Source of the DNA: Rubrobacter aplysinae
Lineage (GTDB): Bacteria > Actinomycetota > Rubrobacteria > Rubrobacterales > Rubrobacteraceae
DNA length: 64,000 nucleotides
Reading direction: 5' to 3'
NCBI RefSeq assembly: GCF_001029505.1
Contig: NZ_LEKH01000003.1
Coordinates: 124,001-188,000 of the forward strand
Shown here: one piece after another, positions 15,991 to 51,156 of the stretch
How positions within the stretch are numbered: position 1 is the stretch's first letter
Layout of the letters: every line of letters begins with the position of its first letter
The notes under the pieces: generated by a model
The model's input: the letters and a program-made list of their open reading frames with translations, nothing else
Database searches by the model: none
Told to the model about the DNA's origin: nothing
Position numbers and translations under genes: made by a program

Positions 15991-16450
15991 TCGGCGTGTC
16001 TCCTCTCACCACCCGCTAGCCAGCCTCGGCAACGAGCAACGGCCCTCCCTGTATGGCGACCGATACACCGGACGAGGCCCGCACGATCCCGCTCAGGCCT
16101 GATCTAGCCCCTCTGACAAAGGAGACAGTTCCTCCGCCCCGCCTGGTGTCACCCCGAAACTCCAGCCCTCGTGCGCGGGACGCTAAAGGTGTACACCCCC
16201 TCGTGCCGATTACCGGCCGAAGAACAGGGAGAATAGACGGTCCGGGTTCGCCGGGCACCCGCGAGCTCGGCCGGGGTGCCGGGAAGCCGGGTACGGCGGC
16301 GAACGCGGCAGAGTGTACGGCGCGCTCGGACACTATCGTGCGGACCATGCGGGGAGCACGCAGAGCCGCCGGGAGGAGTCCGGGCGCGCCGTACTGCGCA
16401 CTGCGTGCGGCCTCCGGAAGCGGCGGCAGCGAGTAAGCGGGGAAGATGAG
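15991..16450. other. 460-base region without a recognised gene, GC-rich with hairpins
   Basis: No frame here has convincing coding character. The clearest structure is a near-perfect inverted repeat around 16250-16290 (CCGGGCACCC against GGGGTGCCGG), followed by further GGC/GCC-rich stems up to about 16305. No T-run follows, so it may be RNA structure in the leader of the MHYT-like gene or part of the fabI 3' end. I see no c-di-GMP aptamer signature. Nothing else can be supported. Confidence 0.4.
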
Positions 16451-16456
16451 GTGAAC

Positions 16457-16897
16457 ATGGACGGTGCTCCAGAAACGGCTATAAACGGCACGTACAATCT
16501 CTTTCTCGTCGCTCTCTCGATAGTTATAGCCGTGATAGCCTCCTACTCCGCCCTGGATCTCGCGGGCCGGGTGACGGCCTCCACCGGAGTCTCCCTCAAG
16601 GCCTGTATCGAGGGCGGCGCGATGGTGATGGGCGTGGTCATCTGGTCCATACACTTTATCGGGATGCTCGCCCTTAGTGCGTCCCCGATGACCTACAGCG
16701 TGCTTACCCTGCTCGTCTCGATGGTGGTCGCGGTCTTCGCCTCCGGCGTCGCGCTCTGGCTGCCCTACCAGTTCCGGCAGGGCTCCTCCATGAGAGGGCT
16801 CGCACTCAAGCTCGGCAGCGCGCTGGCGATGGGCGGTGCCATATCGGGGATGCAATACACGGGGATGGCCGCCAGATTCACCCCGACCGGAGAGTAA
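16457..16897 (+). CDS. MHYT-like membrane sensor fragment/short protein, ends at an in-frame stop before the kinase
   Basis: 146-aa protein of four hydrophobic helices resembling the MHYT signalling domain, a metal- or gas-binding membrane module that normally begins sensory kinases and GGDEF proteins. The first motif appears as WSIHFIGM (about residue 65) and the second as SGMQYTGM (about 136), where the conserved His is Gln. The family usually has three motifs and six or seven helices; here the middle pair is missing. The next codons after TAA (16895-16897) are in the same frame as the kinase at 16904, whose first residues form another helix. So this is either a nonsense-split MHYT-kinase or a coupled two-gene receptor. 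A GTG at 16451 is an alternative start. Confidence 0.72.
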   Translation: MDGAPETAINGTYNLFLVALSIVIAVIASYSALDLAGRVTASTGVSLKACIEGGAMVMGVVIWSIHFIGMLALSASPMTYSVLTLLVSMVVAVFASGVALWLPYQFRQGSSMRGLALKLGSALAMGGAISGMQYTGMAARFTPTGE

Positions 16898-16903
16898 GAG
16901 GCT

Positions 16904-19900
16904 TTGTTGGATACCTCCCTGCTGGCGGCGGCCGTCGCTGTAACCACGTTCGTAATACTCGCGATCGCCATCTTCATCGCCATCCTCAACCGCCGCTTCA
17001 AAAACCAGGAGACCCGGCTGGAGGAGAGCGAAGAGCTCAACCACGCCGTGATACAGACGGCTCCGGACGCGATCATAGCCACGTCTCTGGATGGAGCCAT
17101 ACAGGGCTTCAACGGCCAGGCCGAGCGGATCTTCGGCTACAGGGCGGGAGAGGTACTCGGAGAGCCGCTCAGGATGCTGATGCCCGAGCGGTTCCGGGAG
17201 GCTCACGACAGCGGGTTACGGCGGTATCTGGAGACCGGAGAGGCCCGCCTCGTGGGCAGTACGGCGGAGCTCACCGGGCTGAGGAAGAGCGGCGAGGAGT
17301 TCCCGCTGGAGCTCTCGCTCGGAGAGGTGCGACACGGCGGAGACCGTTCGTTCATCGGCATCATCCGCGACATAACCGGGCGCAGGGAGACCGAGCGAGA
17401 GTTGAGCGAGAACGAGCGCCGGTTCCGCCAGTTCTTCGAGCAGTCGGTGGACGCCCTGCTGGTCCACGACGAGCAGGGCTACATACTCGACGCCAACTCC
17501 GAGGCGGCCCGCTCCCTCGGCTACTCGCGGGAGGAGATGCTCTGCCTTTCCGTGAGAGACTTTGCCACCAACCTCGTGCCGGAGGGGACCGAGCCCCCGG
17601 ACGGGACCCTGTGGCAGCGGGTGATGGAGGCCGAACCGGGTGAGACCGTAGGGATACACCACGGAGAGCATGTGCGCAAGGACGGCACGGCCTTCCCGGT
17701 CGAGGTGCGGATCGGGGCCGTCGAGCAGGATGGGAAGAAGCGGGTGCTGGCCTCCGCCAGGGACATTACCGGACGTGTCGAGGCCGAGCGGCTACTGAGA
17801 GAGAGCCAGCAAAGCTACGCCTCGCTCTCGGAGTACAACCCGGATGGCGTGATCTCGCTCGACCCGGAGGGGTGCCTGATCTCGGCGAACCCAACGATGT
17901 CGGAGGTTACCGGCTACACCCGGGAGGAACTGTTCGAGAGCACCCTGTCACCCCTCGTCGTGCCGGGAGACAGGGAGCGCCTGACGGGGTATTTCACCAG
18001 GGCCCTCGCGGGCGAGCCGCAGAACCTGGAGTCCGGGCTGCTGCACAGGGACGGCCACATGGTCGAGGTCGGCGTTAGCCTGGTACCGGCGGTGGTGGAT
18101 CAGGAGACCGTCGGTGTCCACGGAATCGTCAAGGATATAAGCGAGCGGGTAGAGGCCGAGCGGCGGGTGGCGGATAGCGAGCAGCGCCTGCACGGCCTGA
18201 GCGAGGCGACGTTCGAGGGTGTCGTGATCGCCGACAGGGGCACGATAATCGAGTCCAACGCGGCCTTCGCCTCGATGTTCGGCTACGACGAGCCCCCGGA
18301 GATCGTGGGCCGCTCGCTGCTGGCGGAGTTCGTCGTCCCGGAGTACGTGGAGATTGCGCGGGACCACATCCTCGGCATGTCCGAGGAGCCGTACGAGATC
18401 GTTGGCGTAAAAAAGGACGGGACCCGGTTCGACGTCGAGATCCGGGGCCGGCGCTCCGTCTACAAGGGCCAGACCGTGAGGATCGCCGCCGTGCGCGACG
18501 TCACCGGGCGCAACGAGCGGGAGAGGGAGCTGCGGGAGGCCGAGGGGCTTTTCCGGGGAGCCTTCGACAACGCCGCGGTCGGCATGGCTCTGAACCACCC
18601 CGGGAACGGACGCTTCGTGCAGGTAAACGACTTTCTGTGCCGGATGCTCGGCCGCTCCCGGCAGGAGTTGCTCGGCTCCACGTTTGCGGACATCACCCAC
18701 CCCGACGACGTGGACACCAGCGTGGAGCAGGTCCGGCGGCTGATGGCGGGTGAGATCCAGAGCTACCAGCTGGAGAAACGCTACCTCCACCGGGACGGGC
18801 GTACGCTGTGGATCTCGCTCCACGTCTCGGCCGTCAGGGACGCCGAGGACCGGCCGCTGTACCTGATCGCCCAGACTCAGGACATTACGGATCGCAAGCG
18901 GGCTGAGGAGGAGATCCGGCGGCTCAACGAGGAGCTGGAGAAGCGGGTCCGGCGGCGCACAGCCGCGCTCAAGGCGAGCGAGGAACGCTACAGGCTGGTG
19001 ATGGAAGGCTCCAACGACGGTATCTGGGACTGGGACATCCAAACCGGCGAGGTGTACTGGAACGACCGGCTCTTCGAGCTCCTGGGACTCTCCCGGGACG
19101 AGACCGACTCCAGCTTCGAGCTTTACATGAGCCTGATCCACCCCGAAGACCGGCAGGCGGTACAGGACGACGTCACGAATCACCTGGAGAGCGGCGAGGA
19201 TTTCGTCTCCGAGTACAGAATCCTGCACTCAAGCGGCGAGTACCGGATCGGCGAGGCCCGGGGAGAGGCACTGTGGGACGAGGGTGGCGCTCCGGTGAGA
19301 ATGGCCGGCTCCGTTAGGGACATCACCTGGCGCAAGCGGAAGGAGGAGATACAGCGCTTTCTGGTCGAAGCGAGCTCCGTGCTCTCCTCAACGCTCGACT
19401 ACCGGCACGCGCTCGCCGGCGTAACGGAGCTGGCCGTGCCGGAGCTCGCCGACTGGTGCGTCACGAGTCTTCTAGAGAACGACGAGCTCAACACACTGTC
19501 GGTGGCGCACGAGGACCCAGAGATGGCCCGGTGGGCGCAGAGGTTGAAGGAGGAGTACCCGCCGGGCCCCGACGGCCCGTACGGCGTGGGCGAGGCGCTG
19601 CGCACCGGACGGTCCCAGATGTACCCGGAGCTCACCGCCGAGATGATACAAGCCACCACCCAGGACGAGGAACATCTGAGGCACTTGCGAGAGATCGGCC
19701 TGAGATCCGTTATGATCGTGCCGCTCGTGGCCCGGGGGCGATCGCTCGGGACGTTCACCTTCGCCCTCTCGGAGGCGGCCCGACGTTACGGGGATGAGGA
19801 CCTGGAGATGGCCGAGGAGCTCGCCCGGCGCGCGGCCCTGGCGGTGGATAACGCTCGGCTCTACGAGGAGGCCCAGATGGAGCTCGCCGAGCGTCAGCAG

Positions 19901-22024
19901 GCGGAGACCGAGGTCCGCGAGCTCAACGAGTCGCTGGAGTCCCGCGTGGAGAAACGTACCGCCCAGCTTTCGGAGGCGAGGAAAGAGGCAGAAGACGCAA
20001 ACCGGGCCAAGAGCGACTTTCTGGCGAACATGTCGCACGAGATCCGCACCCCCATGAACGGCGTTATCGGGATGTCGGACCTCTTGCTGGACACGAACCT
20101 CGACCCCGAGCAATACGAGTACGTGGACACGGTCCGCCGCTCGGGAGAGACGTTGCTGGCCCTGATCAACGACATCCTGGACTTCTCGAAGATCGAGGCC
20201 GAGAAGGTGGAGCTGGAAGAGATCGTGTTCGACCTCAGGGCCGCGGTCGAAGATACCGCCGTGCTGCTCGCCGAGCGCGCCCAGGGCAAGGGGCTGGAGA
20301 TCGCGGGTCTCGTGGACTACGACGTGCCAGCCGCCCTCAAAGGTGACCCCGGACGTCTACGCCAGGTCCTGACCAACCTCCTCGGCAACGCCATCAAGTT
20401 TACCGAGGAGGGCGAGGTCGTATTGAAGGCGGAGCTCGCAGAGGAGACAGAGGAGTCGGCGGTGATCCTCTTCGAGGTCCGGGACACCGGCATCGGCCTG
20501 GACGAGGATCAGCGGAAGAACCTGTTCGAGTCTTTCTCCCAGGCAGACTCCTCCACGACCCGGCGCTACGGCGGCACGGGGCTCGGGCTCGCCATCAGCC
20601 AGCGGCTGGCGGGGCTGATGGGCGGTGAGGTCCGGGTAGAGAGCGAACCGGGCGTCGGGAGCACCTTCTACTTCACGGCCAGATTCGAGAAGCTCTCTTC
20701 GGAGATCCCGGCCACCCCCCGCCCGCGCGCCGACCTGCACGGCGTGAAGACCCTCGTCGTGGACGACAACACCACCAACCGCTCCATCCTGCGCCACCAG
20801 ATAACTCCCTGGGGAATGGAGGTGGAGGAGGCCCGGGGAGGAGCGGAGGCCCTACAGAAGCTGCGCTCGGCTGCGGAGAACGGGACACCCTACGACCTTG
20901 CGATACTGGACATGCAGATGCCGAAAATGAACGGTCTGGAGCTGGCCCGAAACATCAGTCAGGACCCGAGGCTCTCCCGGACGCACCTCGTGATCGCGAC
21001 CTCCATGGGCCAGCGCGGCGACGGTGAAGAGGCCCGCAGGGCCGGTATAGAAGCCTACCTGACAAAGCCCATACGCCAGGCGCAGCTCTACGATATGCTC
21101 TCGATAGTAATGGGCGCGGACGACGAGGAGCCTGGCGGCGCGCACGACACCCAGACCCTGGTGAGCGCCCACACCCTCAAGGAGGCCGAGGCCCACACCC
21201 GGTCCAGGCTCCTGCTGGCCGAGGACAACGAGGTTAACCAGAAGGTCGCCGTGCGCACCCTGGAGAGGCTCGGCTACCGGGTTGACGTGGCGGAGGACGG
21301 CGCAGAGGCCGTGGAGGCCGTCTCGCGTACCGACTACGCAGCCGTGGTGATGGACATACAGATGCCGAACCTGGACGGCTACGAGGCAACCGCCGAGATC
21401 CGGAGCCGGGAGAGTGAGTCCGGCGGACACGTGCCCATAATCGCCATGACCGCGAACGCCCTGCAAGGAGACCGGGCCAGGGCGCTCGAAGCGGGCATGG
21501 ACGACTACATCTCAAAACCCGTCAAGGCCGGAGAGCTGGGAGAGGTGCTTTTGAACTGGGTATATGCAGAGGAATCCGCCGCCGTGGAAGGAGGCGAGGA
21601 CTCCGCCCGAGAAAAGGGCTCCGCCTGTAAAAGCGGCGCTGACAGAGCAGATGAGGGTATTGCCAGGGCACTGGATCCCGCCGTTCTCGCCGGTCTCAGA
21701 GAGCTGGACGACGGAGGTGCAGCCGGTGAGCAGAGCCTGGTGGCCGAGCTCGCCGGCATGTTCCTCGACGACGCGGACTCCCGGATACACACCCTCCGTA
21801 GCGCCATGGACGAGGGGAGGGCGGAGCAGGTAAAGGAGGTTGCCCACGCGCTCAAGGGGAGTAGCGGCAACATGGGCGCCCACGACATGCAGGAGCTGTG
21901 CGCGGAGCTCCAAGAGGCCGGCGAATCCGGCGACCTCGCGGGCGCACCGGAGGCCTTGGAGGCGCTCGAAGCGGAGTTCGACCGGATACGCCCGGAGCTC
22001 ACGCACCTGGCCCGGGAGGGCTAG
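16904..22024 (+). CDS. giant hybrid sensor histidine kinase: TM, six PAS, GAF, HisKA, HATPase, REC, REC, Hpt
   Basis: 1706-aa multi-step phosphorelay kinase. A single N-terminal helix ([23 protein letters not shown]) anchors it. Six PAS modules span about residues 45-815, several ending in the PAC pattern ([40 protein letters not shown]), with a coiled coil near 670-700. A GAF domain covers about 816-990, then a second coiled coil. HisKA has [10 protein letters not shown] with the phospho-His near 1045; the ATPase has [19 protein letters not shown] and [13 protein letters not shown]1 (LVVDDN ... LDMQMP) and REC2 (LLAEDN ... MDIQMP) keep their Asp residues near 1335 and 1483. The Hpt motif HALKGSSGN is near 1648. 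Starts are TTG codons at 16904/16907 with AAGAGG overlapping the preceding TAA. The diguanylate cyclase directly after is the likely output. Confidence 0.93.
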
Positions 22025-22025
22025 C

Positions 22026-22988
22026 TTGCGGATACTGGTCGCCGAAGACGACGCCGTCTCGCTCCTCATCGTGCGGCGCGCCGTCGAGAAGCTGGGGCAC
22101 GAGTGCCTGCCGGCGAAAAGCGGCGGAGAAGCCTGGCGCCTCTACCAGGAGAACCCGGACGTGGACGTAATCGTCAGCGACTGGATGATGCCGGACGTCG
22201 ACGGCCTCGAGCTCTGCCGCCGGGTCCGGGCCGAGTCGGAGGAAAGGCAGAACAGGTACGCGTACTTCATCTTCCTTACGGCGCTCGGGGACAGGGAGGA
22301 CCTACTGAGGGGCTTCGAGGCCGGAGCCGACGACTACCTCTCGAAGCCGCTCGACCGCGACGAGCTACAGGTGCGGCTCATCTCGGCCCGCCGGCTCACG
22401 GCCCTGCACCGGCAGCTCGCGGAGCAGAGGACGGAACTCGAGGAGCTCAACGCCAGGCTAGCGGATCAAGCCCGCACCGACCCCCTGACACATCTCGGCA
22501 ACCGTCTACAGATGCGGGAAGACATCGAGGTCCTGCACGCCCGGACCGAGCGTTACGGGCACAGCTACTGCGCGATCCTCTGCGACGTGGACCACTTCAA
22601 GCTCTACAACGACACCTACGGCCACCTGGCCGGAGACGAGGCGCTCAGGCTGGTGGCGCGGACCGTGGCGCAAAACGTTCGCAGGGGCGATACGATCTAC
22701 CGGTATGGCGGCGAGGAGTTCCTGGCCCTCCTCCCGGAACAGACGCTCGAAGCCTCAAAAAGGGCCGCCGAACGTATCCGGGGGTCGGTGGAGAGGCTCG
22801 GGATAACCCACGGGGCCAAAGAGCCCCCGGGCGTCCTCACGATAAGCGCGGGGGTCGCCGTGCTCGGGGGTGTGGAGCAGAGAGGCCCGTGCATGTCGGA
22901 CGCCCTCCTGAAAGAGGCCGACGAAGCCCTCTACGAAGCGAAAGAGGCCGGGAGAAACCGGGTGATCTCCCGGTGCGACGGGGTCTGA
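22026..22988 (+). CDS. response regulator diguanylate cyclase (REC-GGDEF)
   Basis: 320-aa phosphorylation-controlled enzyme making c-di-GMP from two GTP. The receiver domain (residues 1-120) has the acidic pair VAEDD, the phospho-acceptor Asp52 in IVSDWMMP and the KP motif in DDYLSKPLDRDEL. A coiled-coil linker (LHRQLAEQRTELEELNARLADQA) leads to the GGDEF domain, which has the metal and substrate segment CDVDHFKLYNDTYGH and the signature GGEEF at about 228. RRGD five residues before it fits the inhibitory RxxD product site, so feedback inhibition is likely. The TTG start at 22026 is one base after the kinase stop, with GGGAGG inside the kinase end, so translation is coupled. It is the obvious phosphorelay partner of that kinase. 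Confidence 0.93.
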   Translation: MRILVAEDDAVSLLIVRRAVEKLGHECLPAKSGGEAWRLYQENPDVDVIVSDWMMPDVDGLELCRRVRAESEERQNRYAYFIFLTALGDREDLLRGFEAGADDYLSKPLDRDELQVRLISARRLTALHRQLAEQRTELEELNARLADQARTDPLTHLGNRLQMREDIEVLHARTERYGHSYCAILCDVDHFKLYNDTYGHLAGDEALRLVARTVAQNVRRGDTIYRYGGEEFLALLPEQTLEASKRAAERIRGSVERLGITHGAKEPPGVLTISAGVAVLGGVEQRGPCMSDALLKEADEALYEAKEAGRNRVISRCDGV

Positions 22989-26399: not shown

Positions 26400-27953
26400 T
26401 TGCGGACGGAGACATCCAGGAGAGTGGCTATAGTAGGCGCCGGAATGGGCGGTCTGGCGGCCGCGATCCGGCTTGCCTCCGCGGGCTTTGCCGTGGATGT
26501 CTTCGAGAAGAACGCCTCCGCCGGAGGGAGGATGAACCGCCTCGAAACCGACGGAGGCTTCACCTTCGACACCGGCCCCTCGCTGCTCTTGATGACAGAC
26601 ACCTACCGCAAGCTGTTCCGGGACGCCGGGCGGGATCTCTCGGACTACGTCGAGCTCCTGCCGCTGGACGGCGACTACCGGGTGGAGTTCGGCGACGGCG
26701 ACTCGCTTACCATCCGCCGCACGCTCCCCGAGCTCATAAAGGAGCTAGAGCGCATAGAGCCCGGCGTTACCCCGCGCTTCTACCGATTCCTCGAAGACGC
26801 CTGCCACAAGTACCGCCTCGGGCGCTCGGAGTTCGTCGAGCGAGACTTCGACACCGCCGCCGACTTCTTCAGCCTCCGCAACCTCAAGCTCCTGTGGAAG
26901 ACGCAGGCCACCCGCAACTACTACAAGAGCGTCTCGCGCTACTTCCACACCGAGAAACTGCGGCAGGCGTTCTCGCTGCAGACCATGTACCTCGGCCTCT
27001 CCCCCTTCGACGCCCCGGCGGTCTACTCGCTCCTGCCGTATACGGAGATGGCCGAGGACGGGCTGTGGTTCCCGCGCGGCGGCATGTACTCGCTGGTCCG
27101 GGCGTTCGAGCGGCTCGCCGGGGAGCTCGGGGTGGAGATCAACCTAGATTCCCCGGTCGAGGAGGTGGTGGTCGAGGGAGACCGGGTGCGCGGGGTCCGC
27201 GTCGGCGGCGAGACCCACCGCGCCGACGCGGTGCTCGCAAACGCAGACCTGCCCTACGTGTACCGCTCGCTCTTGCCGAAGGCCGCGGAGGGTGACTTCG
27301 CCCCGCCGCGCAAGAAGCGCCGGAGCCTGGAGTACACGGCGTCGGCATTCATGCTGTATCTGGGGATAGAAGGGGAGCTCGATCACCTCAAGCACCACAA
27401 CTTCTTCCTCTCTAGTGAGTACCGGGAGAACTTCGAGGCCATCTTCGACGAGGGCCGGCTCCCCGAAGACCCGTCCTTCTACGCCGTGGTCCCCTCCCGC
27501 ACCGAGCCCGGCATGGCCCCAGAGGGCTCGGACGCGCTCTTCGTGCTCGTGCCGGTGCCGCACCTCGGTGAAGCAAAGGGCGGAGGCGTGGACTGGGAGC
27601 GCGAAGGCCCCGCTTTCAAGGAGAAGATCTACGACCTCTTGGAGAGCCGCGCCGGAGTGGAGAACATCCGGGGGCGCATCCGGCACGAGACGGTAAAGAC
27701 CCCGCGCGACTGGCTCTCGGACTACAACCTCGAAGAGGGCGCGGCCTTTGGGCTGGGGCACGGGATCTTCCAGGTCGGCTACTTCCGTCCCCCCATCTCC
27801 TCGCCGAGCATAGAGGGCATGTACTTCGTCGGGGCCAGCACCCGGCCCGGCACCGGCGTCCCGCTCGTCGTCATCGGCGCGGAGCTCGCCGCCGAGAGGA
27901 TACGGCGCGAGGTCGGCGTCTCCCCCACGGGTTCCGGAGCCGGGTCTTGGTAA
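26400..27953 (+). CDS. crtI: phytoene desaturase
   Basis: FAD-dependent carotenoid desaturase of 517 aa, which introduces double bases of conjugation into phytoene to give lycopene or an intermediate. The dinucleotide fold opens at the N-terminus with VAIVGAGMGGLAAAIRLASAGFAVDVFEKNASAGGR, the CrtI bacterial pattern. The substrate-side segments FTFDTGPSLLLMTDTYRKLF and LSPFDAPAVYSLLPYTEMAEDGLWFPRGGMYSLV are also typical, as is the C-terminal FVGASTRPGTGVPLVVIGAELAAERI. The start is a TTG at 26400 preceded by GGGAGAGACGAG. Its TAA shares one base with the crtB ATG. The pigment itself is not determined by these two genes; Rubrobacter-type C50 or glycosylated carotenoids would need further genes outside this pair. 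Confidence 0.94.
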   Translation: MRTETSRRVAIVGAGMGGLAAAIRLASAGFAVDVFEKNASAGGRMNRLETDGGFTFDTGPSLLLMTDTYRKLFRDAGRDLSDYVELLPLDGDYRVEFGDGDSLTIRRTLPELIKELERIEPGVTPRFYRFLEDACHKYRLGRSEFVERDFDTAADFFSLRNLKLLWKTQATRNYYKSVSRYFHTEKLRQAFSLQTMYLGLSPFDAPAVYSLLPYTEMAEDGLWFPRGGMYSLVRAFERLAGELGVEINLDSPVEEVVVEGDRVRGVRVGGETHRADAVLANADLPYVYRSLLPKAAEGDFAPPRKKRRSLEYTASAFMLYLGIEGELDHLKHHNFFLSSEYRENFEAIFDEGRLPEDPSFYAVVPSRTEPGMAPEGSDALFVLVPVPHLGEAKGGGVDWEREGPAFKEKIYDLLESRAGVENIRGRIRHETVKTPRDWLSDYNLEEGAAFGLGHGIFQVGYFRPPISSPSIEGMYFVGASTRPGTGVPLVVIGAELAAERIRREVGVSPTGSGAGSW

Positions 27954-28909
27954 TGCGTGTGGGTCCTTCAGGCGACGGCACACCGGGCGGCGAGCTCCTA
28001 TCGCTGCCCGAGTGCTACGAGCGGTGCCGTCGGGTAGAGCGGTATCACAGCCGAACCTACTACTTCTCCACCCAGCTCTTCCCGCGCGAGGTGAGGCCCC
28101 ACGTCCACGCCATCTACGCCTTCATGCGCGAGGCGGACGAGATCGTGGACGACCCCGGAGAGGCCAGCCTGGAAGAGCAACTCGCCGGGCTGGATGGCTT
28201 CGAGGCCGAAACGGTCGCAGCGATCTCCGGCGAGTCCGTGGCGAACCCCACGCTGCGGGCCTTCGCGAACACCGTCCGGCTGCACGGCATAGAGCTCGAC
28301 ACCGTAAACGCCTTTCTCGGGAGCATGAAGATGGACACCCGCGTGTTCCGCTACGAGACCTTTATGGATCTAAAAAGCTACACCTACGGCAGCGCCGCCG
28401 TAGTCGGGCTGATGATGTGCCGGATCATGGGCGTGACCGACGCCGCCGCCGACCCCCACGCCGAGGCCCTGGGCGAGGCCATGCAGCTCACGAACTTCCT
28501 GCGCGACGTGGGCGAGGACTGGGAGCGGGGCCGCGTATATCTGCCGCAGGAAGATCTGAAACACTTCGAGTACACGGAGAAGGATCTCGCGTCCGGCGTG
28601 ATAGACGAGCGGTTCGCCAAGCTGATGCGGTTCGAGATCTCCCGCGCCAGACGCCTGTACGAGGATGCGGACCGGGGCCTCCACTACATCCCGCGCGGCC
28701 GGCGCTACCCCATAGCCGTCGCCCGCCGGCTCTACGCCGCGATACTGGACAGCATAGAGGCGAACGGCTACGACGTTTTCTCCGGCAAGGCCTCGACCTC
28801 GGCGGCGAAGAAGCTGGCCGTCGCCACCGGCTGCGCCGCCCGGGACCCGAAAGACCTCGTGGCCCGGAGCCGATCTCGCCGCGCCCCCGGTACCGCGATC
28901 CCGGCATAG
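27953..28909 (+). CDS. crtB: phytoene synthase
   Basis: Condenses two geranylgeranyl-PP to phytoene, 318 aa. Both aspartate-rich Mg sites are present: FMREADEIVDDP near residue 60 and NFLRDVGEDWERGRVYLPQEDL near 180. SRTYYFSTQLFPREVRPHVHAIYAF near the N-terminus and FMDLKSYTYGSAAVVGLMMCRIMG in the middle complete the pattern. The ATG at 27953 overlaps the crtI stop as TAATG, giving tight coupling. Squalene synthase is the alternative within the fold, but the crtI partner settles it. Precursor supply genes are not in the window. Confidence 0.95.
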   Translation: MRVGPSGDGTPGGELLSLPECYERCRRVERYHSRTYYFSTQLFPREVRPHVHAIYAFMREADEIVDDPGEASLEEQLAGLDGFEAETVAAISGESVANPTLRAFANTVRLHGIELDTVNAFLGSMKMDTRVFRYETFMDLKSYTYGSAAVVGLMMCRIMGVTDAAADPHAEALGEAMQLTNFLRDVGEDWERGRVYLPQEDLKHFEYTEKDLASGVIDERFAKLMRFEISRARRLYEDADRGLHYIPRGRRYPIAVARRLYAAILDSIEANGYDVFSGKASTSAAKKLAVATGCAARDPKDLVARSRSRRAPGTAIPA

Positions 28910-29022: not shown

Positions 29023-29155
29023 CGCTCATCGAGAGCGGTGGAGGGACTGGCCCTGTGAAACCGCGACGGCCGGCGAGTCAGATGCTTAAGAATGATTTGC
29101 ATCATGACCCGCGCCAGGTGCCAATTCCTGCGGAGCGTGCTCCGAGAGATGGGCG
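29023..29155 (+). promoter_or_regulatory. SAM-I (S-box) riboswitch
   Basis: P1 is CGCTCATC (29023-29030) with GATGGGCG (29148-29155). The conserved core GAGAGCGGTGGAGGGACTGG and CCCTGTGAAACCGC follows with P2 pairing GCGGT/ACCGC. P3 pairs GTCA/TGAC and ATGC/GCAT over a 13-base loop. The conserved AGGTGCCAATTCC leads to P4 (GGAGC-GT-GCTCC) and ends GAGAGATG, as in the family. It binds S-adenosylmethionine. No terminator with a T-run follows; AAGGAGAGG before the gene could instead pair with TCTCC near 29175, so control is more likely at translation, which is inference. Its target is the homocysteine methyltransferase/MTHFR fusion, the same type as B. subtilis yitJ. Confidence 0.95.
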
Positions 29156-36768: not shown

Positions 36769-36993
36769 TTACGCCTGTATGTTCGTCTGGTACCAGCGCG
36801 TGGCCGCGCCGAGCCCCCCGGCTTCCGGGAACGTCTCGCCTTTTGCGAGCTGGACCCTTACGGGCGCGTGCATGGTCCCCAAGTCGCAGATGTAGGTGTT
36901 GGTTACCGGGGCCTGCTCACCCGCCTCGAAGACGGGCCCGTAATGCCGGTAGCGGTCCAGTATCTCCTGTGTGGTCCGTGCGTCAGCGGACAT
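36769..36993 (-). CDS. small hypothetical protein, 74 aa
   Basis: I do not recognise this protein. It is soluble and acidic at the start (SADARTTQEILDRYRHYGPVFEAGEQAPVT) with a single cysteine in NTYICDLGTMHAPVRVQLAKGETFP. The layout, with a helix followed by strands, and the GETFPEAGG turn suggest a compact domain. AAGGTG... and GAGAGGCGAG sequences lie upstream of the ATG at 36993, and the frame uses normal codons, so I accept it. It lies upstream of the DUF4230 gene in the same direction and may be co-transcribed. Confidence 0.6.
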   Translation of the reverse strand: MSADARTTQEILDRYRHYGPVFEAGEQAPVTNTYICDLGTMHAPVRVQLAKGETFPEAGGLGAATRWYQTNIQA

Positions 36994-37391
36994 TCTCGCC
37001 TCTCCAAAGGTGTTTTCTTGCCTGATCTGGCCAAATTTCCCGGGTGGATTGTAGCTTATATCCCGGCGGCTCCGGGGACCGTACCGTAGCGGCCTCTCTA
37101 GAGAGCATCCGCGAAAACGGGAGCCGTGAGCATCCAGACCCGGCCGGAGCCGCCGGGTCTCCTTTCCGGAAGCTTTTCACGCTCCGGAGGCCGCAGGCTG
37201 GATGCTGGTAGACTATGGTAGTCGCTGGTGGGGTGGTCGCCGGGTTAAAGTCCCGTCCCGGAGCAGCCGATAACCTCTTATACCATGCGGGATGCGAGGG
37301 ACACTAAGAATATGCAGGACACGGGGCCGGGCACTATACACGGGGTATACCCAGCCCTGGTTAGGGTTCTAGGACCGATCGGGAGAGGCCG
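36994..37391. other. 398-base intergenic region upstream of the LOV-GGDEF-EAL gene, with palindrome and stem-bounded element
   Basis: No gene is supported. ATGGTA (37215-37220) and TACCAT (37281-37286) could close a 72-base element that contains a CGGGTTAAAGTCCCG hairpin; it resembles a tRNA T-arm in miniature but no tRNA can be folded around it. A perfect palindrome GGGTATACCC lies at 37343-37352, about 40 bases before the start codon, a candidate operator. I searched by eye for the GEMM c-di-GMP aptamer signature and did not find it. Confidence 0.45.
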
Positions 37392-40300
37392 GTGCAAAAG
37401 ACTCACGCAGATCTGGCTGGCGCGCTAGAGGGAGCCACCGACGCCTTCTTTATTCTTGACGGCGGTTGGCGTTTTACCTACCTGAACTCCAGGGCGGAGC
37501 GGGTCCTGGACCGGCGAAGCGAGCGCCTCCTCGGTGAGGACCTCCGGGAGGCATTGTCCGAGTCGGTGACGTTTACGCTGCGCAAGGAGCTTGGCCGGGC
37601 GGTCGAGGAAAGGGACCTGGCCGGGTTCCGGTGGTATCACCCGGAGCTCGACAGATGGTTCGAGGTTCGGGCCAATCCGCTGGAGAGCGGCGTTTTGGTC
37701 TGTCTCCGAGACACCGACGAGAGCCGCGAGGGCTGGCTCGGAATAGTAGAGAGAGCCCTCGAAGCCTCTGCCGCCGGCGCCCTCATAACTGACGCCACGC
37801 AGCCGCACGACCCAATCATCTACGCCAACCGCGCCCTGCAGCGGATGACGGGCTACACCGAAGGGGAGATGATCGGGTACAACTGCCGCTTCCTGCAGGG
37901 GACGGACCGGGACCAGCCCGAGTTGAGAGGGCTGCGGAAAGCCGTCCGCTTCGGGGAGGACTGTACGTGCATCCTGCGCAACTACCGCAAGGACGGCACG
38001 TTATTCTACAACGAGCTGTATGTCTCACCCGTAAGCGACGAAAACGGGAACGTCACCCACTACCTCGGCATCCAGAATGACGTGACGGACCGCGTACTCG
38101 CGAGCGAGCGGGACGAGGAAACCCTCAGACAGCAGGCGGCCGCCATGCAGAGCTCGATGGACGGCATCGGTATCTCCGGCCCCGACGGCAGGCTCGGGCA
38201 CCTAAATCAGGCCCACGCCGACCTCTACGGCTACGCAAACCCCGACGAGATGGTCGGCATGGGCTGGCGAGAGCTGTACGGCGAGGATCAGGTCTCCCGG
38301 TTCGAGCGCGACGTCGTCCCAGACCTCGTGAACGAGGGGCACTGGCGTGGAGAGGCCGCCGGCGTGAGAAAGGACGGGAGCGAGTTTCCGCAGGAGCTGT
38401 CCCTGAGCGTCCTCGAGGACGGCGGGACGGTCTGCGTGGTCCGGGACATCAGTGAGCGCAGGCGCGGCGAGGAGGCGAGCCGGCTGCTGTCCTCTATAGT
38501 CGAGCACTCCGAGGAGGCCATAGTCGCCAACACCCTGGACGGGACCATCACGAGCTGGAACCCCGCCGCGGAGAGGCTCTTCGGCTACACCGCAGAGGAG
38601 ATGGTCGGCGAGTCCGTCGGCATCCTCAACCCCCGTGAGAAGCCGAATGAGAACCTGGAGAAGATAAAGAGTATGGGCCGCACCGGGGCCCCCAACCGGC
38701 AGGAAACCGTGCGCGTGGCGAAGAGCGGGGAACGGATGGAGGTATCGGTTACGAGTTCGCCCGTCCGGGACGCGGCGGGCAGCGTCACCGGCACCTCGGC
38801 AATCTTCAAGGACATCTCGCGCAGCAAGGCCGCCGAGCGCGCCCTGACCGAGAGCGAGGAACGTTACCGGGCGATCGTCGAGGACCAGACGGAGATGATC
38901 TGCCGCTTCTCGCCGGACCGGACGCTCACGTTCGTCAACGAGTCCTACTGCAGACACTTCGGCCTCGAACGAGAAGAGCTACTCGGAGAGAGCTTCATGT
39001 CACAGATCCCGGAGGAAGAGCGCCGGGCCCTGGAGGAGCACCTCTTTAGTCTGACTCGCGAGAGCCCGGCGAGGTCCGTCGAGCACCGGATAACGACCGC
39101 CGGGGGCGAGGTGCGCTGGCACCAGTGGACGGACAGGGCCCTGTTCGACGAGCGGGGAGAGCTGACGGGCTACCAGTCCGTGGGCCGCGACATCACCGAG
39201 CGCAAGGAGGCCGAGGAGGCCTTACACCGGGAGCGCAATCTGCTGCGCACCGTCATAGACTCCACCCGCGACTTCATCTTCGTCAAGGACACCGAGCACC
39301 GCTTCCGCCTCAGCAACGCGGCCCACCAGAGCGTTATGGGCGCGGGCTCCCAGGAGGAGCTCCTTCTGGGCAAGACCAACGCCGACTACTGGGGAGAAAA
39401 AGCGGCGGCCCCCTTCCACGCCGACGACCGGCGGGTGCTAGATCATGGGGAGTTCATCGCGGACCGGGAGGAGAAGGTCTACGGAGCCTCCGGCGAGGAG
39501 TTGTGGCTCTCGACCACGAAAGCGCCCCTGCAGGCTTCCGGCGGCGGCATAGAGGGTCTGGTGGCCGTGAGCCGGGACATCACCGAGCGCCGCCGAGAGC
39601 AGCACGAGCTCTCCATCACCGCCGCCCGGCTCACCACGCTGATACAGAACATGCCCTCCGGCATTCTGGTCGAGGATGAGGAGAGGAATATCCGGCGCGC
39701 GAACGCCGCGATCACCCGGATGTTCGAGATGGAGGCCACGGCGGAAGAGCTCACGAGGGATGACTGCAACACCGCCGCCCGGGACGTGATGAACCTGCTC
39801 GCGGATCCGGAAGGCTTCGTGGCGCGCATAGAGGAGATCCTGGCCAGCGGCCGGGCCGTGACGGGAGAGGAGGTCCTGCTCGCCGACGGGCGGGTCTACG
39901 AACGGGACTACGTCCCCGTCTACGTCCGGGGCGAGTACCGGGGCCACATGTGGCACTATCGGGATCTCACCTCCCACAAACGGGCGGAGGAGAGGCTAAG
40001 AGAGAGCCAGGGGCGTTTCCGGGCGCTCTTCGACCAGACGGCGGTAGGGGTGTGCGTCGCGGACCTGGACCGCCGCCTACTGGAGACCAACGAGGCCTAC
40101 CAGAAGATAACCGGCTACAGCGGGGAGGAGCTCATGGGCATGTCCACCCTGGAGCTCACCCACCCGGAAGACCGAGCTGCCGATACCGGGGTAAGCAGGA
40201 CCTTCGTATCCGACCACACCGACAGCTACCGGAGGTCCAAACGTTACATCCGCAAGGATGGCGCGGTGATCTGGGCAGAGGCGACGAGCTCATTGGTGCG

Positions 40301-42083
40301 GGACGAGCAGGGCCAGCCCAGGTTCATAATGGGTATCGTGGAGGACGTCACCGAGCGCAGAAAGGCTCAACTGGATCTGGCGGAGAGCGAGCGCCTCCTG
40401 AGGACCGTAACCAGCGGCGCGCCGGTCATCCTATTCGCGACGGACCCGGAAGGGGTGATCACACTCTCCGAAGGCAAGGGGCTGGATCTCGTCGGCCGGA
40501 GCCCGAGCGAAGATGTCGGGGAGTCGGTCTTCGAGACGTACGGGGATCTGCCGGAGATCGTGGACAACGTATGCCGGGCGCTGAACGGGCAGGAGGTGGC
40601 GGCTACCGTGGAGGTGGGAGGCCTGGCCTTCGAGACCCGCTACTCGCCCATACGCGACAGAGAAGGGGAAGTCACGGGCTCCATCGGGGTGGCGACCGAC
40701 GTCTCCGCCCGGCGGGAGCTCGAGAAGGAGCTCGAGCACCGGGCCTTCCACGACACCCTGACCGGGCTGCCGAATCGGGATCTATTCATGGAACGGCTGG
40801 AGCGCGCCCTGGCCCGGAACCTGCGGAACAAGCAGCACGTGGCGGTGCTTTTCCTGGACCTCGACGACTTCAAGCACGTAAACGACTCGCTGGGCCACAC
40901 GGCGGGCGACCGCCTGCTGATCGAGGCCGGACAGCGTATCCAGGCGTGTCTGAGAGACGAGGACACCGTTGCGCGCCTCGGCGGCGACGAGTTTGCCGTG
41001 CTCATGGAGGAGGTTCTGGAGCCGGAATCCACGGCGCGGGTGGCCGAGCGCATCGCGGCGGAGATACGCCGGCCCATCACCCTGGCCGAGTGCCCCGACA
41101 GCCCCACGGAGGGTCCAGAGGTGATAGGCACCCTGAGCCTGGGCATAGCCCTGAGCGGTCCGGAGGATAAACCGGTGGGCGCGGAGGAGCTTTTACAGAT
41201 GGCGGACGCCGCCCTGTACACGGCCAAGGACACCGGCAAGGACCACCACGAAGTGTTCCGCCAGGAGATGAAGGATCGCTCCGCCGAGGTGCTAAAGACC
41301 GGCAGAGACCTGCGCCTGGCGCTGGAACGCGAAGAGTTCATCCTGTACTACCAGCCCAAGATCGACCTCTCCACGGGCACGGTGTCCGGGGTAGAGGCGC
41401 TCCTCCGCTGGGAGCACCCGGAGCGCGGCCTGGTCCCCCCCGACGAGTTCATCCCGCACGCCGAGGATAACGGGCTGATAATACCCCTCGGCCGTTGGGT
41501 CCTGCGGGAGGCCTGCCGGCAGGCGAAAGAGTGGCAGGACCTCGGGCGCACAGCCTCGGAGGGCACAGCCTCTGGGGCCCCTTCCCCTGCGCCCCTCAAG
41601 GTCAACGTCAACGTGTCCGCCCGCCAGCTCCGGTCACCGGGCTTCCCGGCGGACGTGGCGGCGGCGCTTTCGGAGACGGGGATAGAACCTTCCAGCCTGG
41701 TGCTGGAGATCACGGAAGGCGTGCTATTCCAGCAGGACAGTCACGGCGCCTCCGTCCTGCGCGAGCTCAGGGAGCTCGGTGTGTGGCTCGCGATAGACGA
41801 TTTCGGGTCCGGCTACTCCTCGCTATCCTACCTGAAGAACCTGGCGGTGGACGTACTGAAGATAGACCGTTCCCTGGTCTCCGGCATGGGCGACGATCCC
41901 GCCAGTTACGCCATAGTCTCCGCCGCCGTCGCCGTCGCGCACGCCCTCGGCCTGCTGGCGGTAGCCGAAGGCGTCGAGGAGGAGTCCGAGCTCGACGAGC
42001 TGCTCAGGCTCGGCTGCGACTTCGGCCAGGGCTACTACTGGTCCAGCCCCAGGCCCGCCGACGAGATCACGGCCTTCCTGTAG
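37392..42083 (+). CDS. LOV- and multi-PAS-containing GGDEF-EAL protein (c-di-GMP turnover)
   Basis: 1563-aa cytoplasmic signalling protein with no membrane helix. The second PAS-type domain (about 115-237) is a LOV domain: it has GYNCRFLQG with Cys165 as the expected flavin-adduct residue, plus YANRALQRMTGY and NYRKDGTLFYNEL at conserved LOV positions. Around it are about eight further PAS domains (residues 8-1100). The GGDEF domain (about 1110-1280) has an intact GGDEF at 1197 and an RDED I-site five residues before; the EAL domain (about 1300-1560) has EALLRW at 1335, NVSARQL, EITEG, DDFGSGYSSL and AEGVEEE, all needed for phosphodiesterase activity. Net direction is not predictable. The start is GTG at 37392 with GGGAGAGG upstream. 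Blue light is the inferred input. Confidence 0.93.
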   Translation: MQKTHADLAGALEGATDAFFILDGGWRFTYLNSRAERVLDRRSERLLGEDLREALSESVTFTLRKELGRAVEERDLAGFRWYHPELDRWFEVRANPLESGVLVCLRDTDESREGWLGIVERALEASAAGALITDATQPHDPIIYANRALQRMTGYTEGEMIGYNCRFLQGTDRDQPELRGLRKAVRFGEDCTCILRNYRKDGTLFYNELYVSPVSDENGNVTHYLGIQNDVTDRVLASERDEETLRQQAAAMQSSMDGIGISGPDGRLGHLNQAHADLYGYANPDEMVGMGWRELYGEDQVSRFERDVVPDLVNEGHWRGEAAGVRKDGSEFPQELSLSVLEDGGTVCVVRDISERRRGEEASRLLSSIVEHSEEAIVANTLDGTITSWNPAAERLFGYTAEEMVGESVGILNPREKPNENLEKIKSMGRTGAPNRQETVRVAKSGERMEVSVTSSPVRDAAGSVTGTSAIFKDISRSKAAERALTESEERYRAIVEDQTEMICRFSPDRTLTFVNESYCRHFGLEREELLGESFMSQIPEEERRALEEHLFSLTRESPARSVEHRITTAGGEVRWHQWTDRALFDERGELTGYQSVGRDITERKEAEEALHRERNLLRTVIDSTRDFIFVKDTEHRFRLSNAAHQSVMGAGSQEELLLGKTNADYWGEKAAAPFHADDRRVLDHGEFIADREEKVYGASGEELWLSTTKAPLQASGGGIEGLVAVSRDITERRREQHELSITAARLTTLIQNMPSGILVEDEERNIRRANAAITRMFEMEATAEELTRDDCNTAARDVMNLLADPEGFVARIEEILASGRAVTGEEVLLADGRVYERDYVPVYVRGEYRGHMWHYRDLTSHKRAEERLRESQGRFRALFDQTAVGVCVADLDRRLLETNEAYQKITGYSGEELMGMSTLELTHPEDRAADTGVSRTFVSDHTDSYRRSKRYIRKDGAVIWAEATSSLVRDEQGQPRFIMGIVEDVTERRKAQLDLAESERLLRTVTSGAPVILFATDPEGVITLSEGKGLDLVGRSPSEDVGESVFETYGDLPEIVDNVCRALNGQEVAATVEVGGLAFETRYSPIRDREGEVTGSIGVATDVSARRELEKELEHRAFHDTLTGLPNRDLFMERLERALARNLRNKQHVAVLFLDLDDFKHVNDSLGHTAGDRLLIEAGQRIQACLRDEDTVARLGGDEFAVLMEEVLEPESTARVAERIAAEIRRPITLAECPDSPTEGPEVIGTLSLGIALSGPEDKPVGAEELLQMADAALYTAKDTGKDHHEVFRQEMKDRSAEVLKTGRDLRLALEREEFILYYQPKIDLSTGTVSGVEALLRWEHPERGLVPPDEFIPHAEDNGLIIPLGRWVLREACRQAKEWQDLGRTASEGTASGAPSPAPLKVNVNVSARQLRSPGFPADVAAALSETGIEPSSLVLEITEGVLFQQDSHGASVLRELRELGVWLAIDDFGSGYSSLSYLKNLAVDVLKIDRSLVSGMGDDPASYAIVSAAVAVAHALGLLAVAEGVEEESELDELLRLGCDFGQGYYWSSPRPADEITAFL

Positions 42084-42204: not shown

Positions 42205-43785
42205 CTACAGCGTTACCGAGCGGGCCTCCGTGAAGCCCGGGATCTCCAGTAGCTGCTGTAGCACCTCATCCGGGACCTCCTCGTCCACCGTCACGGCCAT
42301 CGCCGCGCCGGAGTTGGGCTCGTCGCGGCCCACGGCCATGTTACCGATGTTCAGGCCGGCCTCGCCGAGGACAGATCCGATGCGCCCGATCATGCCGGGC
42401 ATGTCCTTGTTGCGGATGAACAGCATGTGCTTCTCCGGGGTGATGTCCAGGGTGAAGCCCATCGCGCCTATCAGACGCGGCCGCATCCCGGTGCCGATGA
42501 GCGTCCCGCTTACGGCGTGCTCGCCGTCACGGGTCTGCATCCTGAGCGTCACGAGGCTCGTGTAAGCCCCGTCCTCGGGCACGCGCGAGGTCTCGACCTT
42601 CAGGCCCCTCTCGCGGGCGAGCGCCGGGGTGTTCACGAAGTTCAGGGGCTCGTGCACCATCGGCGCGAGCAGCCCCTTCTGCGCCGAGACGTCCAAAAGC
42701 CGAGTGTCGAACTCTGCGACCTCGCCGCGGTACTCTACCTTGAGCGTCTCACCCGGACGGTCCGAGAGGCCGTACAGGAGCTTGCCGAGCGACTCGCACA
42801 GCTCGGAAAAACGCCCGACGAACTCCGCCCCCTCGCCCTCCGGTACCGGGGCGTTTATGGCGTGCATCGGCACCTCGCCCCGGAGCGCGAACGCGACCTG
42901 CTCGGCGGCGGTCACCCCGGCCCTATCCTGGGCTTCCACGGTGCTCGCGCCGAGGTGGGGCGTGACGACCGTGTTCGGGAGCGAGAACAGCGGCGAGCCG
43001 GTGTTCGGCTCCTCGGCGTACACGTCGAGGGCGGCCCCGCCGATGGTCCCCTCCTTGAGGGCGTTGTAGAGGTCGGTCTCGTTTACGATGCCGCCACGGG
43101 CGACGTTTATGAGGTAGGCCGAGGGCTTCATCCGCCCGAGCGCGGCGGAATCTATCATGCCCGTCGTCTGCGGCGTGCGCGGCACGTGCAGCGAGATGAA
43201 GTCGGCGTTTTCCAGCACCTCCTCGACAGATTCGGCGCGGTGGACGCCCATCTGCCGGATCTTCTCGTCCGAGATGTACGGGTCGTAGGCGAGTACCTTC
43301 ATCCTCATGCCCAGGGCACCCCGGGCGACTATGGCCCCGACGTGCCCGAGCCCGACGAGCCCGAGCGTCTTCTCCGCGACCTCCACACCCTTGAACTCGC
43401 CGCGCTTCCACTTACCTTCACGCAGAGAGGCGTCCGCCGCCGGGATGTGGCGCGCGGCGGCCAGCATCAAGCCCAGGGTGTGCTCGGCGGCGGCGATGGT
43501 GTTGGACTCCGGGGCGTTCGCCACGAGGATGCCGCGTTTGGAGGCGGCCTCGATATCTATGTTGTCCACCCCGATACCTGCGCGCCCGATGGCCTTCATG
43601 TTGTCGGCGCGCCCGATCACGTCCGCCGTCACCTGGGTCGCGCTGCGGATTATGAGGCCGTCGTACTCGCCTATCCTCTCCAGAAGCTCCTCGTCGGAGA
43701 GGTCGAGCAGCACGTCGACGTCGAAGTCCTCTTTTAGCAGCTCGACGCCGCTCTCGGCGAGCTTCTCGGTGATCAGGACCTTCAA
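42205..43785 (-). CDS. serA: D-3-phosphoglycerate dehydrogenase
   Basis: First enzyme of serine synthesis, oxidising 3-phosphoglycerate with NAD, 526 aa. The catalytic part has VANAPESNTIAAAEHTLGLMLAAAR, the cofactor loop LGLVGLGHVGAIVA and PHLGASTVEAQDRAG with the catalytic His. The C-terminus holds the ASB/intervening domain and an ACT domain (HMLFIRNKDMPGMIGRIGSVLGEAGLNIGNMAVGRD), the type II arrangement of actinobacteria that often gives serine feedback. The TTG at 43785 overlaps the stop of the upstream aminotransferase (TTGA) and has GGGGTG 5 bases before it; the much longer reading to 44322 is a shadow of that neighbour. The two genes act in consecutive steps. Confidence 0.96.
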   Translation of the reverse strand: MKVLITEKLAESGVELLKEDFDVDVLLDLSDEELLERIGEYDGLIIRSATQVTADVIGRADNMKAIGRAGIGVDNIDIEAASKRGILVANAPESNTIAAAEHTLGLMLAAARHIPAADASLREGKWKRGEFKGVEVAEKTLGLVGLGHVGAIVARGALGMRMKVLAYDPYISDEKIRQMGVHRAESVEEVLENADFISLHVPRTPQTTGMIDSAALGRMKPSAYLINVARGGIVNETDLYNALKEGTIGGAALDVYAEEPNTGSPLFSLPNTVVTPHLGASTVEAQDRAGVTAAEQVAFALRGEVPMHAINAPVPEGEGAEFVGRFSELCESLGKLLYGLSDRPGETLKVEYRGEVAEFDTRLLDVSAQKGLLAPMVHEPLNFVNTPALARERGLKVETSRVPEDGAYTSLVTLRMQTRDGEHAVSGTLIGTGMRPRLIGAMGFTLDITPEKHMLFIRNKDMPGMIGRIGSVLGEAGLNIGNMAVGRDEPNSGAAMAVTVDEEVPDEVLQQLLEIPGFTEARSVTL

Positions 43786-50090: not shown

Positions 50091-50224
50091 ACCTCGTTTG
50101 CCTCGTTTACTCCGTTTAAACCGTTCGCACAGCCCGGTCTCGTCCCGCCACGCGCCCGGTACCGGATCACACCCGCCGCATTCAGACCGTTAATTCTAGC
50201 ACCTGCCCCGCCGTATCCGGGTGC

Positions 50225-50238
50225 TATATTGTCTCACG
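50225..50238 (+). promoter_or_regulatory. -10 element directly before the FHA-GGDEF ATG (leaderless transcript)
   Basis: TATATT at 50225-50230 lies 8 bases before the ATG at 50239, so transcription would begin at or within one or two bases of the start codon and give a leaderless mRNA. No Shine-Dalgarno is present and no strong -35 is visible. Leaderless mRNAs are common in actinobacteria. Confidence 0.5.
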
Positions 50239-51156
50239 ATGCAGGAGACAGAGCCGCAAAATCAGACGCAGTACGAGCTGCAAAACGGGAGATGCGAAGC
50301 CTCCGGCGGAGACGGCGCGGGGGACGTTGGAGAGGATCTCGCACACTTCGTAGTGCTGCAGGGTCCGAGCTTCGGCGACGTTTGCCGGCTGGAGGGCGAG
50401 GACCTCGTACTGGGCAGCGACCCATTCCGGGCGGACGCCGTGATCCGGGACGCCACCGTGGAGCCGCGCCACGCCGAGGTCATAGCCTGCGGCGACTGCG
50501 GCTACGTGGTGCGCGACCTGTCGGGCTCCACCCGGGTCAACGGGGAACTGGCGGACGGCAGACACACCCTCCTGGACGGCGACCGGGTGTTTCTGGGATC
50601 CAGCGTGCTCGAGTTCTCCTGCGGCGACCCGATAAAGTCCCGCTTCCACGACTCGCTGAATCGCCTGATAAACGAGGACTACCTCACGGGCCTCTTGTCC
50701 AAGAGCCGCTTCAACGAGGAGTTCGAGCATTCGCTGAAGGCCGCGCGCGCCGACCGTCAGCCCCTCTCGATACTGATGGCCGACATAGACAACCTGAAGA
50801 AGATAAACGACGCCCACGGACATCTGATAGGGGAGTTCGCCGTGGGCGAGGTCGGCAGCGTGATCGGCAGCCTCCATCGCGCGGACGGACGCTTCGCAAC
50901 CCGCTTCGGCGGCGACGAGTACCAGAGCATCCTGCCCGGCCTCACCCGGGAGGAAGCCCTCGGAGTCGCGGAGAAGGTGCGGTCCACGGTAGAGGAGTAC
51001 ACCTTCAAGCGTAACGGCGTCTCCACGAACCCCACCCTCTCCATAGGCGTCGCCACCTATCCCGGAGACGGCGACACGCCGGAGACCCTGACCAGGGCCG
51101 CCGACGCAGCCCTGTACCGGGCAAAAAGCTCCGGCGGTAACACGGTAAGAGATTAG
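50239..51156 (+). CDS. FHA-GGDEF diguanylate cyclase
   Basis: 305-aa soluble protein. An FHA domain (about residues 27-120) shows LVLGSDPFRADAVIRDATVEPRHAEV and VVRDLSGSTRVNGELADG, the phosphothreonine-binding pattern. A GGDEF domain follows (about 140-300): YLTGLLSKSRFNEEFEHSL, MADIDNLKKINDAHGHLIG and the active-site motif as FGGDEYQSIL (GGDEY, about 224), then SIGVATYPGD. The Phe-to-Tyr swap at the last position is seen in some active cyclases. No RxxD I-site lies before the motif, so product inhibition is probably absent. FHA input suggests control by a Ser/Thr kinase. It occupies the space between gatA and gatB, pointing opposite to both. Confidence 0.88.
   Translation: MQETEPQNQTQYELQNGRCEASGGDGAGDVGEDLAHFVVLQGPSFGDVCRLEGEDLVLGSDPFRADAVIRDATVEPRHAEVIACGDCGYVVRDLSGSTRVNGELADGRHTLLDGDRVFLGSSVLEFSCGDPIKSRFHDSLNRLINEDYLTGLLSKSRFNEEFEHSLKAARADRQPLSILMADIDNLKKINDAHGHLIGEFAVGEVGSVIGSLHRADGRFATRFGGDEYQSILPGLTREEALGVAEKVRSTVEEYTFKRNGVSTNPTLSIGVATYPGDGDTPETLTRAADAALYRAKSSGGNTVRD

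Follow-up and report, generated by a model that had tools for sequence, protein, structure and literature searches.

Proteins that combine a LOV domain with the enzymes of c-di-GMP turnover form a known class, and about 18% of the LOV proteins of bacteria have GGDEF or GGDEF plus EAL as partner domains (PMC4844311). The characterised LOV-GGDEF-EAL protein, SL2 of Synechococcus elongatus, is a blue-light-activated phosphodiesterase according to the account of Cao 2010 given in PMC8846402. RmcA of Pseudomonas aeruginosa is a multi-PAS GGDEF-EAL protein on which light acts via a cysteine-less LOV-like PAS domain (PMC8846402), and MsLadC is a LOV-diguanylate cyclase (PDB 8c05, PMC10396304). In Rubrobacter radiotolerans, a dimer of RsiG with two c-di-GMP molecules holds the sigma factor WhiG, and WhiG-type promoters with mapped start sites lie before type IV pilus genes and five diguanylate cyclase or phosphodiesterase genes (PMC8325347).

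The gene described here lies in a 64,000-nucleotide stretch of the Rubrobacter aplysinae genome (hereafter the window; contig NZ_LEKH01000003.1, positions 124,001 to 188,000), to which our coordinates refer unless stated otherwise. An earlier note had read it as a light-controlled nine-PAS GGDEF-EAL protein of 1563 amino acids, and the frame holds exactly: it runs from 37392 to 42083 on the forward strand with a GTG start and a GC3 of 0.86, and a ribosome-binding-like GGGAGAGG (37381-37388, forward strand, recognised by eye) ends 4 nt 5' of the GTG. Pfam and NCBIfam profiles give the architecture PAS-LOV-(PAS)7-GGDEF-EAL, with a PAS array that begins at the N-terminus and reaches about residue 1110, followed by GGDEF (residues 1118-1284; 40743-41243) and EAL (1305-1553; 41304-42050), and a count of DxT ends likewise yields nine PAS-fold domains including LOV. 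The first of these, PAS1 (residues 1-115; 37392-37736), is divergent, with 1 of 18 LOV pocket residues; the LOV domain (116-240; 37737-38111), recognised from PDB matches, pocket residues and a structural model, contains Cys165 (37884-37886), by its motif the predicted photo-adduct cysteine; and PAS3 to PAS9 (245-1113; 38124-40730) are seven domains without a LOV-type pocket. The product is probably a photoreceptor enzyme located in the cytoplasm and belonging to the LOV-GGDEF-EAL class, of which, as a protein, it is a new and elaborate member.

The protein resembles SL2 in carrying a canonical LOV domain, GGDEF and EAL on one chain, but its LOV domain is the second of nine PAS domains and lies about 870 residues from GGDEF, it is actinobacterial, and its gene has a WhiG-type promoter. 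With RmcA it shares the multi-PAS GGDEF-EAL build and a light-linked PAS domain, whereas its LOV domain possesses the adduct cysteine and its array comprises nine PAS domains. Its LOV core is similar to that of MsLadC (E 1.5e-29, TM 0.92), which, in contrast, lacks EAL and has a coiled coil that links its LOV domain straight to GGDEF. Other Rubrobacteraceae LOV-GGDEF-EAL proteins (e.g. the LOV-PAS-PAS-GGDEF-EAL protein of R. marinus at locus L063) consist of the same parts, some of them with the same promoter type, but place no more than three PAS/LOV domains ahead of GGDEF-EAL, and no LOV domain found in the family search exceeds 57-59% identity to the present one. The likeness to the RsiG-WhiG system of R. 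radiotolerans consists in the promoter consensus, the diguanylate cyclase and phosphodiesterase genes among its targets and the presence of WhiG; the text of PMC8325347 mentions neither LOV domains nor a link to light. The earlier note's photoreceptor reading is probable insofar as sequence and fold comparisons place a LOV domain on one chain with intact c-di-GMP domains; its word "striking" should be toned down. The class is already known from SL2 and the 18% or so of bacterial LOV proteins mentioned above (PMC8846402, PMC4844311), and Rubrobacteraceae commonly have LOV domains. The explanation that we favour for the locus as a whole, and hold to be somewhat probable, is that of a LOV-lit GGDEF-EAL enzyme, likely a phosphodiesterase, whose gene would be driven by WhiG in a positive loop.

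The whole GGDEF-EAL portion can be aligned with MorA-type structures of P. aeruginosa (4rnh, E 2.5e-110; 5m3c, E 5.8e-102), whose aligned core differs in having no LOV domain. As the earlier note had stated, the catalytic residues are intact: an inhibitory-site RxxD motif (RDED, at residue 1188; 40953-40964) stands five residues ahead of an intact GGDEF motif, and all EAL motifs tested (EALLRW, NVSA, EITE, DDFG, LKID, EGVE and QGY) are present. Judged by these motifs, both synthesis and breakdown of c-di-GMP are possible for this protein. At about residues 1385-1400, just before the NVSA strand, its EAL domain has an insertion of about 12 residues rich in Gly, Ser, Ala and Pro relative to the MorA-type structures.

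LOV is usually, though not obligatorily, joined directly to GGDEF; here seven PAS domains separate the two, and coupling of LOV to the output may for this reason be weak or conditional. From the LOV domain onward, the distance between the DxT aspartate and the first strand of the next PAS domain is, in our alignment, 30 residues in six of seven linkers and 26 residues between PAS3 and PAS4, values that depend on that alignment. Even spacing of PAS domains is expected of stacked dimers with helical linkers. The 30-residue spacing also fits the coiled-coil relays between such domains reviewed in PMC6798134, which describes an engineered LOV-plus-heme-PAS kinase whose helical-linker arrangement allows it to integrate the two signals, light and oxygen; by analogy, the PAS chain could integrate light with other signals.

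Light might, alternatively, activate the GGDEF domain, making the protein a net diguanylate cyclase in the light and the WhiG loop one of negative feedback, a reading that we regard as possible but rather unlikely. It draws on the intact GGDEF domain and I-site, on the existence of LOV-activated diguanylate cyclases (PMC10396304), on the spacing of 18 residues from the last PAS domain to the DxLT motif, which is that of other family members, and on a same-genome LOV-GGDEF protein without EAL (C8, see below). However, all EAL motifs are equally intact, it is PAS9 and not LOV that abuts the GGDEF domain, and the LOV-GGDEF-EAL protein that has been characterised, SL2, is reported in PMC8846402 to be a light-activated phosphodiesterase. 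On the strength of the SL2 precedent we favour a light-raised phosphodiesterase.

The feature that tells most about the locus lies upstream of the gene and had not been remarked on in the earlier note. Within the 390 bp read there, a perfect promoter of the sigma-WhiG/flagellar type (37246-37273, forward strand; consensus from PMC8325347) consists of TAAA at 37246-37249, a 16-nt spacer and GCCGATAA at 37266-37273, and ends 118 bp, i.e. less than 200 bp, before the start codon. The perfect pattern is unique in the window, was absent from 100 shuffles of the window, and occurs twice in the 3.19-Mb genome, against no occurrence of a reversed-pattern control; the other perfect site precedes a golvesin-NlpC/P60 gene. 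With one mismatch permitted at spacer 16, the genome has 13 additional sites, a few such sites per genome being expected by chance. Among the genes that follow these 13 are that for the LOV-GGDEF-EAL protein C5, an HD_5 (HD-GYP-like) gene, and golvesin-glucosaminidase, CAP, subtilase, SpoIID and metallo-beta-lactamase/Excalibur genes. The set of putative WhiG-type sites thus comprises c-di-GMP turnover and exported cell-surface enzymes. Matches to TAAAG with at most one mismatch, counted in 1.66 Mb, number seven at spacer 16 compared to zero to four at other spacers. Secreted cell-wall or surface enzymes with WhiG-type promoters (golvesin-NlpC/P60, CAP, golvesin-glucosaminidase, subtilase and SpoIID) are seen at the loci L235, L249, L250, L253 and L255 of this genome. 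Neither a sigma-70 promoter nor a riboswitch was found upstream of the gene: there is no nearby Rfam match, and the leader folds like its shuffles (z -0.07).

WhiG itself is encoded in the genome (contig C10, 57739-58413; 237 bits against a TIGR02479 cut-off of 189.6). A search of small open reading frames for the RsiG-like c-di-GMP motif gave no match in the 1.66 Mb (52%) of the 3.19-Mb genome scanned, and RsiG is the weakest link of the feedback model. Across the family loci, in which start codons are unannotated and promoter positions therefore approximate, a site with at most one mismatch occurs at the start region of four of 12 LOV/c-di-GMP genes (the C5 gene among them, the gene described here being a further case), at one of 32 other LOV genes and at none of 137 other neighbouring genes (four of 12 versus none of 137: Fisher p 2.5e-5). 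This distribution suggests that LOV/c-di-GMP genes of the family, two of them in this genome, are under WhiG-type control. In another family genome (G009, locus L041, on a 43797-base contig), the open frame for a kinase-like protein of 1935 residues that contains two canonical LOV domains likewise has a perfect WhiG-type promoter at its start.

That the promoter-like site is a coincidence, or is read by another sigma factor, with no feedback of c-di-GMP on expression, seems unlikely to us. The site is perfect, one of two in the genome, and a GGDEF-EAL gene starts 118 bp downstream of it; such sites are enriched in the family and WhiG is encoded; and R. radiotolerans offers a precedent with mapped start sites (PMC8325347). 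These points weigh against coincidence, whereas the missing match to RsiG in 52% of the genome and the occurrence of one-mismatch chance matches at all spacers speak for it.

As for the light sensor, the LOV domain contains the motif IGYNCRFLQG with Cys165, in agreement with the GxNCRFLQ pattern and with the earlier note, which had singled it out as unlike the other PAS domains. Its best PDB sequence matches are all LOV photoreceptors (6hmj, E 5e-31; PpSB2-LOV 7a6p, E 8e-31), and the LOV-diguanylate cyclase 8c05 is among the top matches both by sequence and by fold. Compared to oat LOV2, with the numbering anchored on C450, ten of 18 flavin-pocket residues are identical, among them N164, C165, R166, Q169, R182, N197, N207 and Q228, and every polar flavin contact checked is kept except N425, which is Asp; in the same alignment the other eight PAS domains retain zero to three of the 18. 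R166 and R182 are the two phosphate-side arginines. The reactive-site and polar pocket residues correspond to the consensus of 99 collected LOV domains. An AF2 model, built with 41 aligned LOV sequences, has a mean pLDDT of 95.2, and all top PDB matches in a fold search with it are LOV proteins (TM up to 0.94). Pocket residues, consensus, model confidence and LOV-only fold matches together make flavin binding very likely. In a tree of LOV domains the sequence groups with Bacteroidota and other LOVs at a weak support of 0.87; since the pattern search biased the sampling, we claim no transfer.

It is also conceivable that the domain binds flavin and serves mainly as a redox or dark-stable sensor whose natural signal is not light. 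Flavin PAS domains can sense redox, a NifL model matches the LOV region weakly and below its cut-off, the motif of the C5 paralogue is altered to NCRFLH, and cysteine-less LOV variants are still able to signal, as far as the account in PMC5645311 goes. We nevertheless hold a redox role to be distinctly unlikely, for Cys165, Q228, R166 and R182 are all kept, as they are in 98, 93, 96 and 93 of the 99 LOV domains, respectively.

The relatives of the protein belong to Rubrobacteraceae, including Rubrobacter marinus, which agrees with the type of bacterium, pigmented and radiation-tolerant, proposed in the earlier note. Nearly all Rubrobacteraceae genomes searched contain LOV domains, whose outputs, by motifs only, include probable PP2C phosphatases and histidine kinases as well as GGDEF and GGDEF-EAL; among the architectures with c-di-GMP domains are LOV-GGDEF-EAL, PAS-LOV-GGDEF-EAL, LOV-PAS-PAS-GGDEF-EAL and PAS-PAS-PAS-LOV-GGDEF. 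By far the longest of the family's LOV plus GGDEF/EAL architectures is the present one, an unusual mosaic: its C-terminal half, PAS8-PAS9-GGDEF-EAL, has many relatives in the family (42-50% identity), while no full-length relative is found among 39 family genomes, nor did a degenerate-pattern scan of GTDB contigs with residues 1-361, which may omit the window's own and very near genomes, return any. A further GGDEF-EAL protein (L096:4255-6768, forward strand) has a pair of LOV-like domains, in one of which Pro replaces the adduct cysteine.

The same genome (G000), with 12 GGDEF and six EAL domains, encodes two further LOV proteins, C5 and C8, both fused to GGDEF or GGDEF-EAL. C5 (C5:199785-203120, L252:1286-4621) is a PAS-GGDEF-EAL-LOV-PAS protein with the LOV domain placed after the output, MHYT-like membrane repeats (seen by eye) and the motif GYNCRFLHG, in which NCRFLH replaces NCRFLQ; C8 is a PAS-PAS-PAS-LOV-GGDEF protein without EAL, and the other genome of the genus encodes a counterpart with 53% identity to it. 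The genome contains neither a PilZ protein, so that c-di-GMP must be read by other receptors, nor a phytochrome. Elsewhere in the window, the stretch 16313-22024 (forward strand) holds an MHYT gene and, after it, one for a 1706-residue hybrid histidine kinase of the multi-PAS-GAF type that carries two receivers and Hpt; a GGDEF gene comes next (about 22470-22961), and the third GGDEF gene of the window lies at 50221-51156 (forward strand; GGDEF at about 50674-51141).

The gene is flanked on the left by a divergent gene for a conserved 74-residue protein (36769-36993, reverse strand), which in relatives lies near the 3' end of serA, and on the right by the convergent serA itself (phosphoglycerate dehydrogenase; 42205-43782, reverse strand). 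Relatives lacking the gene conserve the order crtI-crtB-met fusion-metH-serA, and in the other genome of the genus, from which the gene is absent as well, the gap between metH and serA measures only 568 bp and holds the conserved small gene. The conserved order and the divergent and convergent neighbours indicate that the gene is a lineage-specific, monocistronic addition outside the carotenoid gene set, with the small gene and serA as edges of the insertion. No link to pigment synthesis was found, and the idea that the gene belongs to a light-induced carotenoid locus can be dismissed as very improbable, because the crtI-like and crtB-like genes (26400-28909), although only 8.5 kb upstream, share neither transcription nor conserved linkage with it. 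The homocysteine S-methyltransferase/MTHFR fusion gene and metH are preceded by a SAM riboswitch (RF00162, 76.8 bits; 29023-29155, forward strand).

Taken together, these observations make a feedback between light, c-di-GMP and WhiG plausible, given that WhiG of R. radiotolerans is held by RsiG with c-di-GMP (PMC8325347). Blue light would form the flavin-Cys165 adduct in the LOV domain, and the resulting change would travel along the evenly spaced PAS domains, which could add other signals, to the GGDEF-EAL output, shifting c-di-GMP most likely through a light-raised phosphodiesterase activity. At high c-di-GMP, a putative RsiG would hold WhiG inactive and the gene, if transcribed from its WhiG-type promoter, would be off; in the light, lowered c-di-GMP would free WhiG and yield more of this enzyme and of the LOV-GGDEF-EAL enzyme C5, together with more secreted cell-wall hydrolases. 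A light-raised phosphodiesterase would thereby produce positive feedback, a light-raised cyclase negative feedback. Against a light-controlled output stands the finding that a truncated LOV-GGDEF from a LOV-GGDEF-EAL protein had no light-regulated cyclase activity (PMC10396304), and the missing PilZ, the lack of an RsiG match in the 52% of the genome scanned, the lack of conservation of the gene and the one-mismatch sites expected by chance likewise count against the WhiG-driven phosphodiesterase that we favour.

For the family at large we tentatively propose, as a possibility that we would not yet call probable, that the c-di-GMP blue-light receptors of Rubrobacteraceae are themselves products of c-di-GMP-gated WhiG, forming a self-reinforcing switch for the cell surface, the cell wall and the supply of receptors. 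If true, this would tie light to the RsiG-WhiG switch, which has so far been described as a c-di-GMP sensor, and the protein itself would be a natural case in which to study the passage of light signals across seven PAS domains. The prediction can be tested directly, for Rubrobacter can be grown in culture and mapped WhiG start sites are already available for R. radiotolerans.
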